From assembly GCF_001687545.1 (NCBI RefSeq), contig NZ_CP016545.1, forward strand, positions 1,907,001 to 1,971,000: a DNA stretch of 64,000 bases. Direction: 5' to 3'. Under the pieces are notes generated by a model that made no database searches, had not been told where the DNA came from, and was given only the letters and a program-made list of their open reading frames with translations. The stretch is from Paraurantiacibacter namhicola (GTDB lineage Bacteria > Pseudomonadota > Alphaproteobacteria > Sphingomonadales > Sphingomonadaceae). Made by a program: the position numbers and the translations under genes. Every line of letters starts with the position of its first letter. Within the stretch, counting starts at the first letter, position 1. Shown here piece after piece: positions 2,988 to 57,062 of this stretch.

Positions 2988-5327
2988 TCACGGCAGCACA
3001 ATTGTCACAGTGGTCCCCGCGCCCTTTTCGGACTGCAGGTTCAGGCGGCCGCCATGAGCCTCCACCAGTTGGCGGGCGAGCGGGAGGCCGAGCCCGCGCT
3101 TGCCCTTCCCTTCTGCATCGGCGCCCACGCGGTGGCCTTCCAGCGCGCGGGAGAGTTCTGCCGGGTTCATGCCCGGGCCATTGTCCGAAACCACGATCCG
3201 CGCCGCCTGCTTGCCGCGTTCAAGCGAAACAAGAATGCGGCCCTTGCGCGGCGTGGCGGAGATGGCGTTGTCCAGCACATTGCCCACGGCGCGCGCCATC
3301 TGGCGCTGGTCCAGCTGCGCCTTCCCGGCAGAGCGGCTGCCACGCAAATCCAGCGTAAGGTCCTTTGCCTCGATCGCCTCCTCCCGCTCGCGCACAACAT
3401 TGGTGACGAATTGCAGCAGGTCCACCTCGTCCAGCGCCATGGGCAACAGGCCCGCCTCGCTCTGCGTCAGGTCCAGCACGCTTTCGATCTGGGTGGAAAG
3501 CCGCTCCACCGATGCGACGATTGCTGCGACATATTCCTGCCCCTGATCGCTCAGCGCGCCCGCGACGCCCGATTGCAGCAGTTCGGCAAATCCGCCGATG
3601 GAGGTTAGCGGCGTGCGGAATTCATAGGACATGTTGGCGAGGAAGCGGGTCTTGAGCGCGTCGGCTTCCTCCAGCGCGGTGGCCCGTTCGCGCAGCACGG
3701 TTTCGGAGCGGACGGAGTCGGTGACGTCCAGCAACGTCAGCATGCCGTTGCCATCGGGCAGCGGGACGCCGGCAAACTCCAGCGTGCGGCCGTCGGCCAG
3801 CTGTACGCGTCCGCCCTTCTGCTGGCGGTCCAGCGTGGCGGAGCGCACCACTTCGCCGATGGCCTTGCGCTGGCCGGGGCGGGCGAGCTGGGCCGCAAGC
3901 TTTTCCAGCAGCGTCTGGATCAGCGGGTGCCGGTCCAGCAGCTCCTCCTCCAGTCCCCACAGCTTGCCGAAGCTGCGGTTCCACAGCTGCAGGCGGCCAT
4001 CGGGCGCGAAGACGGCGAGCGATTCGAACAGGTTGTCGAAAGTGGCGGTGCGGGTGCGCAGCAGCGTGTCGCGCGTGGCGGACAGCGCCAGCTGTTCGGA
4101 GCGGTCCTCCGCCACCAGCACCAGCCCGCCATCGGGCATGGGCTGCGCGATGATGCGAAGGTGCGTGCCATCGGGCAGTGTCCACGCCTCTTCCTGCGCC
4201 ACATCGGTGGTGAACCAGTCGCGCAGCTCCGCGCGCCAAGCCGGGAAGTCGCGCGTTTCGGGCAGGCGCGCCTTGTCGCGCGCCATGTCCAGGAAACGGT
4301 CGAAGGCGGGCGGGTCGACATGGCAGGCGGCGGGCATGCCAAAGATGCGCTGAAACGGCTGGTTGGCAAAGGCCAGGCGCCGCTCACCATCGAACTGCGC
4401 CACGCCAATGGAAAGCTGGTCCAGCATGTTGCGCTGCGCCTCGCGGAACGCACGAAAGGCACGGGCCTGCTCCTCCATTTCCTCGATATCGATGGCGTAA
4501 CCGGCCACGCCCTCCTCGCCCAGCGGCAGGTCCGATACGCGCAGGGTACGGCGCTGCGTGCCGATGGTGGCGTTGACGATGCGTTCCACCGGCAAGTCCT
4601 GGTCGCGCGCCTGGCCTGCGACCTGCGCAGCTTCCAGCCCGTCCACCGCCTCGACCAGCTCCACCTGCCCTTCGACAACGGTGGCGGCATCCTTCGCGCC
4701 CACAGCATCGACATAGGCGGAGTTGACCAGCCGCAGCTTCATATCCGGGCCGCGGAACCACATGGGCATGGGCGCGGCCTCGATCAGGCCGACCAGCGCC
4801 GCGAAATCGTTCTTGGCGCGCGCGGTCTCGGTGCGCAGGCGGGACAATTCGCCCTGGCTTTCGGAGAAGTCGAACCACCACAGCAGCGCTGCACCATGCG
4901 GCGCGACCTGCGCATTGGCCGCCTGCCCGCGCACGGCGAGGCTTCGCGTGGAGCCGCGCGGGGTCACGACCATGGAGAAAGGCGAGGCGGTCTTCTGCGT
5001 GCGGCGCACCGCCTCCTGCAGTTCCTCCAGGTGGTCGGCCGTCAGGCCCACCTGCGCCTGGTCAAGCTCGGACAGGTAACCGGGCATGGCATCCAGGCCC
5101 AGCCATGCGGCCAGCCGGTCCGGCCCTTCCAGCTTCCCGTCCGCCTTCACCAGCAGCGGCACGGCCGGGCTGTCCGCAATCATCCGGTCCAGACGCCGCG
5201 CCGCAGCCCGCGTCGCGCGCGCCTTTGCCACTTCGCGCCGGGCTGACAGGATCGCCCACATTGCCGCACCGGTCCACGCCGCCAGAAGCAGCCCGATCAG
5301 CACCAGCGCAGTGGGGGACAATTCCAT
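2988..5327 (-). CDS. divL: DivL-like PAS/histidine-kinase-family protein with Tyr in place of the H-box His
   Basis: 779 residues. One transmembrane segment at about 6-28 precedes several PAS-like regions (about 190-310, 325-440, 450-555), then a HisKA-like dimerisation helix and a GHKL ATPase domain. The H-box reads NMSYEFRTPL: the phospho-accepting histidine is Tyr568 (codon TAT at 3624-3626). The ATPase part keeps an N-box (NVLDNA), DNGPGM and GLGLPLAR. In Caulobacter, DivL has the same His-to-Tyr change (Tyr550) and a similar length; there it binds DivK~P and controls CckA and hence CtrA. That identity is inferred from these features. Start chosen at the ATG before the membrane helix; the longer frame upstream runs through a terminator. 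A strong hairpin separates it from ahcY. Confidence 0.87.
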   Translation of the reverse strand: MELSPTALVLIGLLLAAWTGAAMWAILSARREVAKARATRAAARRLDRMIADSPAVPLLVKADGKLEGPDRLAAWLGLDAMPGYLSELDQAQVGLTADHLEELQEAVRRTQKTASPFSMVVTPRGSTRSLAVRGQAANAQVAPHGAALLWWFDFSESQGELSRLRTETARAKNDFAALVGLIEAAPMPMWFRGPDMKLRLVNSAYVDAVGAKDAATVVEGQVELVEAVDGLEAAQVAGQARDQDLPVERIVNATIGTQRRTLRVSDLPLGEEGVAGYAIDIEEMEEQARAFRAFREAQRNMLDQLSIGVAQFDGERRLAFANQPFQRIFGMPAACHVDPPAFDRFLDMARDKARLPETRDFPAWRAELRDWFTTDVAQEEAWTLPDGTHLRIIAQPMPDGGLVLVAEDRSEQLALSATRDTLLRTRTATFDNLFESLAVFAPDGRLQLWNRSFGKLWGLEEELLDRHPLIQTLLEKLAAQLARPGQRKAIGEVVRSATLDRQQKGGRVQLADGRTLEFAGVPLPDGNGMLTLLDVTDSVRSETVLRERATALEEADALKTRFLANMSYEFRTPLTSIGGFAELLQSGVAGALSDQGQEYVAAIVASVERLSTQIESVLDLTQSEAGLLPMALDEVDLLQFVTNVVREREEAIEAKDLTLDLRGSRSAGKAQLDQRQMARAVGNVLDNAISATPRKGRILVSLERGKQAARIVVSDNGPGMNPAELSRALEGHRVGADAEGKGKRGLGLPLARQLVEAHGGRLNLQSEKGAGTTVTIVLP

Positions 5328-5502: not shown

Positions 5503-6921
5503 TCAGTAGCGATAGTGCTCCGGCTTGTACGGGCCTTCCACCGGCACGCCGATGTAATCGGCCTGCTGCTGGCTCAGCTGGGTGAGCTTCACACCCAGCT
5601 TGTCGAGGTGGAGCGCGGCCACCTTCTCGTCGAGGTGCTTGGGAAGGACGTACACGTCGTTTTCGTACTGGTCGGTGTTCTTCCACAGCTCGATCTGCGC
5701 CAGCACCTGGTTGGTGAAGGAGCAGCTCATCACGAAGCTGGGGTGGCCCGTTGCGCAGGCCAGGTTCACCAGGCGGCCCTTGGCCAGGATGATGATGGAC
5801 TTGCCATCGTCGAACGTCACCACGTCCGTACCCGGCTTCAGTTCCTTCCAGTCGTAATTGTCGAGCGCCGAAATCTGGATCTCGGAATCGAAGTGGCCGA
5901 TGTTGCACACGATGCTCATCGGCTTCATCGCCTTCATGTGGTCGGCGGTGATGACGTCTTCGTTACCGGTAGTGGTGACGAAGATGTCGGCGCGCTTGGT
6001 CGCCTCTTCCATCGTCACGACCTCGTAACCTTCCATCGCCGCCTGCAGGGCGCAGATCGGGTCGATTTCGGTCACCATCACGCGCGCGCCGCCATTGCGG
6101 AGCGAATCTGCCGAACCCTTGCCGACGTCGCCGAAGCCGGCGACGCAAGCGACCTTGCCGGCCAGCATGGTGTCGGTGGCACGGCGGATGGCGTCGACCA
6201 GCGATTCCTTGCAGCCGTAGAGGTTGTCGAACTTCGACTTGGTGACGCTGTCGTTCACATTGATGGCCGGGAAAGGCAGCTTGCCCTGCTTGGCCAGGCT
6301 GTACAGGCGGTGGACGCCGGTGGTGGTTTCCTCGGACACGCCCTTGATGTTCTGGACGCTCTTTGTGAGGTAGCCCGGCTTTTCATTCAGATAGGCCTTC
6401 AGCGCGCGCTGGAATTCGATTTCCTCGGCATTGGCAGGCTCGGGCAGTTCTTCGCCGGCTTCGACGCGGGCGCCCCACAGCGCGAACATGGTGGCATCGC
6501 CGCCATCGTCCAGGATGATGTTGGCGGTCTGGTCGGGATCGCTGTCGGTCGACCAGTCGAAGATGCGGCCGACATAGTCCCAGTAATCGGCCAGGCTTTC
6601 ACCCTTCACGGCGAAGACCGGGATGCCCTGGTCGGCGATGGCGGCGGCAGCGTGGTCCTGCGTGGAGAAGATGTTGCAGGTTGCCCAGCGCACTTCCGCG
6701 CCCAGCGCCACCAGCGTCTCGATCAGCACGGCGGTCTGGATGGTCATGTGCAGCGAACCGGTGATGCGCGCGCCCTTCAGCGGCTGCTCCGCACCGTATT
6801 CCTCGCGCACGGCCATCAGGCCCGGCATTTCGGTGTTGGCGATGGCAATCTCGTCATGGCCGTACTGCGCCATGGAGATGTCCTTGATGATATATTCGTG
6901 CGAATGCTTCGTGTCGGTCAC
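5503..6921 (-). CDS. ahcY: Adenosylhomocysteinase
   Basis: 472 residues. Reversibly hydrolyses S-adenosylhomocysteine to adenosine and homocysteine, keeping the methyl cycle running; cytosolic NAD-dependent tetramer. Seen: an N-terminal [17 protein letters not shown], the substrate-binding [12 protein letters not shown], the NAD-binding [10 protein letters not shown], and the family C-terminus PEHYRY. The start is a GTG preceded by ACAGGAG; the open frame extends further upstream but loses similarity to the family. Divergent from the peroxiredoxin gene across 179 bp. I looked for an SAH or SAM-II riboswitch in that leader and did not recognise one. Confidence 0.97.
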
Positions 6922-55719: not shown

Positions 55720-56612
55720 GCACGTACCTGCCCACTATCAAGCAGCTGCAATATCTGGTGGCGCTGCACGAACACAATCATTTCGGGCGTGCTGCAGAAG
55801 CCAGCTTCGTGTCGCAGTCCACCCTGTCCGCCGGGATACGCGAGCTGGAAACCCTGCTGGGCGTAACGCTGGTGGAACGCAGCCGCCGCGTCGTGCGCTT
55901 CACGCCGCTGGGCAACCAGGTGGTGGCAAAGGCACACCGCCTGCTGCGCGAGGCGGAGGAGCTGTCCGATCTGGTGCAGGCCAGCGGGAAGCCCCTGTCC
56001 GGCGAATTGCGCATGAGCGTGATCCCCACCATCGCGCCCTTCCTGCTGCCCAAGATCCTGCCGCGCCTGCGCCGCGAGCGCCCGCAGCTGAAGCTGTTCC
56101 TGCGCGAGGAGACCAGCGGCGATGCGGTGGAAAGCCTGCATCATGGCCGGGCGGATTGCGTCCTGCTTGCCCTGCCCTTTGCCACGGGCGAAGTGGAAAG
56201 CGCGAAGATCTGCGACGACGAGCTGATGGTGGCCTTCCCCAAGGATGACCCCCGCGATCCACCTGAGATTGTCTCCCCCGGCTCCATCGACGAAGGCCGC
56301 CTGCTGCTGCTGGAAGATGGCCACTGCTTGCGCGAGCATGCCCTGGCCGCCTGCAACCGGCCGGAACTGCGCGATAACGCCACCATGATCGGGACCAGCC
56401 TGCACACGCTGGTGCAGATGGTGGACAACGGACTTGGACTGACCATGCTGCCACGCATGGCCGTGGATGCCGGGATCCTGCGCGATACGGATATCGTCGC
56501 GCGGCCGCTGAAGAGCAAGAATGCGAACCGCGAGATCGCCCTGATCTGGCGGCGAAATTCCCCGCGATCGGCCGAGTTTCGCCTGCTCGCGGAAGAGTTG
56601 AGAGCGGGTTAA
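55716..56612 (+). CDS. oxyR: OxyR-type LysR regulator
   Basis: 298 residues. LysR winged helix (1-60; PTIKQLQYLVALHEHNHFGRAAE) and a co-inducer domain carrying C204 and C213 in DGHCLREHALAAC, at the 9-residue spacing of the redox cysteines of E. coli OxyR. That pair makes it the peroxide sensor rather than a generic LysR. GTG start overlaps the rnd stop. Possible targets in the window include the peroxiredoxin gene; no operator was identified. Confidence 0.93.
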   Translation: MSTYLPTIKQLQYLVALHEHNHFGRAAEASFVSQSTLSAGIRELETLLGVTLVERSRRVVRFTPLGNQVVAKAHRLLREAEELSDLVQASGKPLSGELRMSVIPTIAPFLLPKILPRLRRERPQLKLFLREETSGDAVESLHHGRADCVLLALPFATGEVESAKICDDELMVAFPKDDPRDPPEIVSPGSIDEGRLLLLEDGHCLREHALAACNRPELRDNATMIGTSLHTLVQMVDNGLGLTMLPRMAVDAGILRDTDIVARPLKSKNANREIALIWRRNSPRSAEFRLLAEELRAG

Positions 56613-56625
56613 CACGCGTTTTACC
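56609..56625 (+). promoter_or_regulatory. CtrA-like site upstream of the PilZ gene
   Basis: TTAA-N7-TTTACC, one mismatch from TTAA-N7-TTAA, overlapping the oxyR stop and 60 nt upstream of the PilZ-protein start. A second TTTACC follows 5 nt later. Confidence 0.4.
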
Positions 56626-56684: not shown

Positions 56685-57062
56685 ATGCGTTCTTACAATC
56701 GATTTGAAACCGACAGGGAAATTGCCTGCACGATCAGCGGTGGTCGCGATTTCGTGCAGCTGTACAACCTCTCATGCGGGGGCTGCATGATCGAGACGGG
56801 CCACCCGGACGCAGCGGTCAACGCCATTGTCCAGGTCCACCTGAACGACATGACGGTGATGCCGGGCCGCATCGTGTGGCGCTGCGGCCGCAATGCCGGG
56901 GTCAAGTTCGAAGTGCCGCTGCACAGCCGCCTGGTCGAAAGCCTGGGCTACATGCCGGGTGAGGAATTCGACGCCAGCGATCCGCGCGACCGCTTCGGCA
57001 TCCCGCTGGAAACGAACAGCTGGGCCAGCGACGCCATCGTCGACGGTGCGCGCCTGGGCTGA
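56685..57062 (+). CDS. PilZ-domain protein
   Basis: 125 residues, a single PilZ domain. R2-xxx-R6 (RSYNR) and N28-L-S30-xx-G33 (NLSCGG) form the c-di-GMP-binding signature; WRCGRNAGVKF is the usual beta-strand after it. Lone PilZ proteins link c-di-GMP to motility, adhesion or cell-cycle proteins. Two c-di-GMP-metabolising proteins are encoded in this window but not next to it. Confidence 0.9.
   Translation: MRSYNRFETDREIACTISGGRDFVQLYNLSCGGCMIETGHPDAAVNAIVQVHLNDMTVMPGRIVWRCGRNAGVKFEVPLHSRLVESLGYMPGEEFDASDPRDRFGIPLETNSWASDAIVDGARLG

Follow-up and report, generated by a model that had tools for sequence, protein, structure and literature searches.

What is the role of a histidine kinase whose phospho-acceptor histidine is a tyrosine, and is such a protein, in another order, the counterpart of DivL, a known cell-cycle protein of Caulobacter crescentus? 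The question is raised by a gene of Paraurantiacibacter namhicola at positions 2988-5327 of the window (the whole stretch of 64,000 nucleotides that was analysed). The coordinates of the initial annotation are right, and the minus strand has to be added to them: the gene encodes a protein of 779 aa, with its ATG start at 5327 and its stop codon at 2985-2987. The H-box reads NMSYEFRTPL (FLANMSYEFRTPL around residue 568), and a TAT codon at 3624-3626 on the minus strand (aac-atg-tcc-TAT-gaa-ttc-cgc-acg-ccg) confirms that Tyr568 occupies the position of the H-box His, equivalent to Tyr550 of Caulobacter DivL.

The H-box tyrosine and the domains around it

Tyr568 is not a private mutation. The 54 sphingomonad orthologues were found with the whole protein, which avoids bias at the H-box, and Tyr is present in 51 of them, so it is neither chance nor a sequencing error. 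None of these relatives carries His; the three other rows have Ser (L048), Asp (L052) and a deleted DHp domain (L051). In the 80 loci that come from other orders, Tyr occurs in 65 and His in 3, and 2 are without the core; the remaining 10 carry other residues, some of them in cores whose decay makes the alignment uncertain. Replacements in some members of the DivL group include Ser, Asp, Val, Phe and others. As a mark of DivL, Tyr is thus usual in the orthologues but not universal, as the His residues occur in three more distant members. A 2014 paper already described the Tyr as conserved among DivL homologues, Magnetospirillum with its Ala being the exception (PMC4211667). The His-bearing members of the DivL tree group are L210 (genome G126), L262 (G094) and L268 (G209); L210, which sits on a short branch, could have truly reverted or could be a DivL with activity. 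An all-Tyr count in 80 named loci was dropped as evidence because the scan pattern, SYE[LF]RTPL, biases it.

The ATPase motifs are present, as initially claimed: the N-box with N687, the G1 box D715-x-G717-x-G719 and the G2 box G745-L-G747. In Pfam, HisKA (5.5e-18), HATPase_c (1e-23) and PAS domains all score above their cut-offs. The AlphaFold model (mean pLDDT 80.5; pTM 0.28, so that relative domain placement is not to be trusted) has a long N-terminal helix, four PAS folds and then DHp-CA. On the minus strand, the predicted membrane helix and coiled coil (residues 5-52, 5172-5315, with the membrane assigned by analogy) precede PAS folds at about residues 55-153, 190-280, 308-408 and 436-534 (3726-5165; model secondary structure and Pfam PAS_7/PAS_8), the DHp domain (residues 556-626, 3450-3662; alignment and identity by region) and the HATPase_c or CA domain (residues 673-779, 2991-3311; Pfam and alignment). 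In Caulobacter DivL, residues 1-53 are a predicted membrane helix plus coiled coil, and constructs starting at 152, 281 and 411 contain three, two and one PAS domains (PMC4211667). The predicted architecture therefore matches that of Caulobacter DivL, with membrane insertion likely by the same analogy. Multi-PAS kinases dominate a fold search with the whole model, a consequence of its unreliable domain arrangement.

Identity and neighbourhood of the gene

Sequence searches and trees support the gene as a sphingomonad orthologue of Caulobacter DivL, the identity first proposed for it, and the domain architecture backs it as well. A search of all PDB sequences gave Caulobacter DivL (4q20) as the best match at 2.1e-35, with the next kinase at 3.6e-21. 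The 4q20 core, searched against the window's genome, found the window gene first (8e-37; next 2.2e-29). In the reverse search, against a genome that encodes a DivL 100% identical to 4q20, the window core found that DivL first among 45 kinase matches (7.9e-37), and the runner-up (3.7e-32) is DivJ by an NCBIfam model over its cut-off. The two proteins are reciprocal best hits. In a tree of 70 kinase cores with 200 bootstrap trees, the 33 DivL-group cores, those of the window and of Caulobacter DivL included, form one side of a 99/94 branch recovered in 100% of bootstraps. Outside it lie DivJ, nine further kinases from the window's genome and L284, which we take to be PleC-like from its size and because it matches DivJ and PdhS models. 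A smaller tree again recovers the DivL group (100/100), with DivJ/PleC as the nearest group (97/85). The phylogeny of the HisKA-HATPase region thus places the window core with DivL and not with ordinary PAS kinases. DivJ and PleC, the PdhS-type DivK kinases, also have a DivK-binding DHp domain, but they carry the phospho-acceptor His, whereas the window gene has Tyr568 and falls outside their branch.

These results leave next to no room for an ordinary PAS histidine kinase, unrelated to DivL, that has recently lost its His. NCBIfam does return many generic kinases, and those alone, for the 779-aa protein, all far below their cut-offs and with no DivL model at its cut-off; the tree, the reciprocal best hits and the Tyr in 51 of 54 orthologues nevertheless refute such an origin.

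The neighbourhood of the gene is older than was first thought. It had been described as a placement beside tsaE-amgK-murU in this lineage, and the neighbours are indeed there, all on the minus strand: tsaE downstream (2429-2866; Pfam TsaE, 1.8e-34), an amgK-like phosphotransferase of the APH fold (1425-2435) and a murU-like nucleotidyltransferase (712-1449), both syntenic. Upstream lies ahcY, for S-adenosylhomocysteine hydrolase (5503-6912; Pfam AdoHcyase, 2.8e-143). However, the arrangement, ahcY included, is class-wide rather than specific to the lineage. Synteny with tsaE, downstream and on the same strand, is kept in 54/54 sphingomonad loci, and among the 80 loci of other orders tsaE occurs in 47, upstream ahcY in 48, and amgK and murU in 36 apiece, with no change of side or strand in any of them. 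None of ahcY, tsaE, amgK and murU was found within 14-18 kb around Caulobacter divL. Since the order is found across alphaproteobacterial orders and is absent there, ahcY-divL-tsaE-amgK-murU is probably ancestral and was lost in Caulobacter. No CtrA box turned up when the surroundings of divL were searched. Elsewhere in the window, at 56598-56623, two overlapping CtrA-box-like sites (TTAA-N7-TTAA, one mismatch each) lie upstream of a short ORF at 56685-57062 that looks like PilZ by eye; the whole window contains 4 such sites, with 0.95 expected.

The predicted DivK docking surface and the CckA pathway

The DHp domain is the most conserved part of the protein. Identity with the window protein averages 60% in the DHp domain, 71% around the H-box, 37% in the CA domain and 28-50% across the rest. 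Residues of the ATP site are retained in 43 to 49 of the 54 sphingomonad rows, with decay of the site in some, while Arg571 is conserved in 53/54 and Phe580 in 52/54. The pattern fits a protein that would be kept for binding rather than catalysis. Caulobacter DivL is active neither as a kinase nor as a phosphatase and uses a docking surface to bind DivK~P (PMC4211667); the changes R553A, T557N, Y562A and H579E disrupt DivK binding, and A601L disrupts the binding of DivK~P allosterically (PMC4211667). In the alignment, Arg571 and Thr575 match Arg553 and Thr557 of this surface. The window protein differs in Phe580, Tyr599 and Thr621, which replace Tyr562, His579 and Ala601, and its core is 36% identical to that of Caulobacter DivL.

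The window protein is very probably a catalytically dead sensor of DivK that tunes CckA, by analogy with Caulobacter DivL. It would be anchored in the membrane, with the four PAS folds followed by a histidine kinase core that has Tyr for the phospho-acceptor His and is for that reason not expected to autophosphorylate at the usual site. The DHp domain would bind phosphorylated DivK as its input and pass the signal to the membrane partner CckA, which in turn would set the phosphorylation of ChpT and CtrA. Thr621 counts against this reading, as it occupies a site at which a change to Leu disrupts the binding of DivK~P in Caulobacter. All of the partners are encoded elsewhere in the genome: CckA (L325, 1.1e-63 to 5idj), ChpT (PF10090, 7.6e-32), CtrA (L317, 2.1e-55 to 4qpj) and DivK (L329:1489-1890, 1.1e-33 to 1m5t, with the next match at 3.8e-19). 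Sphingomonas melonis can do without CtrA (PMC8116508), and an essential cell-cycle switch is therefore an unlikely output.

Could the Tyr itself accept the phosphate? Tyrosine kinase activity might be suspected from the ATP-binding motifs kept in the window protein and from the tyrosine kinase title of PDB entry 4q20, yet we consider it highly improbable. No autophosphorylation of Caulobacter DivL was seen, and its Y550F variant still binds DivK~P specifically (both PMC4211667). Furthermore, the Tyr is replaced in some members of the group, and the ATP site has decayed in some sphingomonads.

The input to DivL is harder to place. DivJ and PleC set DivK phosphorylation in Caulobacter, but the HisKA kinases of the window's genome with an assignable tree position included none of this type, so the upstream signal must differ. 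It is possible, if on balance unlikely, that DivL keeps its role towards CckA and no longer listens to DivK~P in the Caulobacter way. DivK would then either lack the phosphate or receive it from another kinase, with DivL reading the abundance of DivK or a signal of its own PAS domains. The lack of DivJ/PleC-type kinases speaks for such a change, as does the divergence of both DivK and the DivL DHp domain in the window's family. DivK loci of 11 other members of this family are 47-80% identical to L329 and mostly 50-53% identical to Caulobacter DivK (44% for L358, 68% for L364), whereas eight loci from five other sphingomonad families reach 67-81%. On the other hand, the docking residues of the DHp domain are almost invariant, DivK is mostly retained together with the DHp domain across the genomes searched, and the hybrid kinases L057 and L058 could phosphorylate DivK. 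The survey was also confined to kinases that match HisKA, and one of them, L060, could not be placed. A related scenario, which we put forward tentatively and at somewhat less than an even chance, is that DivL and DivK were kept as a pair in the window's family after the loss of DivJ/PleC and diverged together. DivK would be phosphorylated by an unrelated kinase or act unphosphorylated, and DivL would read a signal other than that of Caulobacter.

Several features of these partner loci may be recorded here. L326 was our first candidate for DivK and proved to be a paralogue, L329 being the better match; the two DivK-like single receivers of the genome (L329:1489-1890 and L326:1486-1860) are 52% identical. 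The L329 gene adjoins a gene for acyl carrier protein. A GGEEF ORF (PleD-like) lies in the 3 kb covered at the DivK locus in 6/8 loci of the five other families. L060:1489-2940 (G000:C1 about 1789458-1790114, minus) lies in the same genome, beyond the window, and encodes a second kinase-like protein without the H-box His: its H-box, DIAPVLRQPIARII, has Pro at the His position, its HATPase_c domain is intact, and its long branch makes its tree position unsure.

Co-loss of the DivL core and DivK, and what the locus offers

Work published in 2010 had already connected DivK with the DivL core (PMC2877005). Both the core and a DivK-like single receiver are missing from 4 of 59 genomes, G003, G013, G020 and G030, all of good quality, and Fisher tests of this co-loss, which ignore phylogeny, give p values of 7e-4, or 1.4e-4 in the good-quality genomes. 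ChpT is absent from G020 and G030 and has only a weak match in G003, so that G013, which has kept ChpT, is the only clean case; in the other three, the pathway may have been lost as a whole. The G013 DivL (L051:5530-7398) is a protein of 623 aa from which the DHp domain (about residues 533-633 of the window protein) has been lost in frame. It is also without the lid/G2 part of the CA domain, and its genome has no DivK-like match. G017 is a counter-example, with a Tyr-bearing DivL but neither a DivK match nor a convincing ChpT. The short DivL of Rhodobacterales (PMC9430884) belongs to the same group of PAS-containing orthologues in a CckA-ChpT-CtrA context, but is without both DHp-CA and DivK, whereas the window protein has the full core and its genome has DivK. 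The DivL proteins of G114 and G330 are of this short kind.

The finding is real but ordinary, one more DivL in a family whose Tyr conservation was already known. Its use lies in its context. According to a 2010 survey, DivK is absent from Sphingomonadales except for a divK-like gene of anomalous phylogeny (PMC2877005); we find DivK-like receivers in most of the sphingomonad genomes searched. The window belongs to a complete, single-contig genome that encodes a full-length DivL, DivK, CckA, ChpT and CtrA and no recognisable DivJ or PleC. It therefore offers a testable setting for the function of DivL where the classical upstream kinases are missing.
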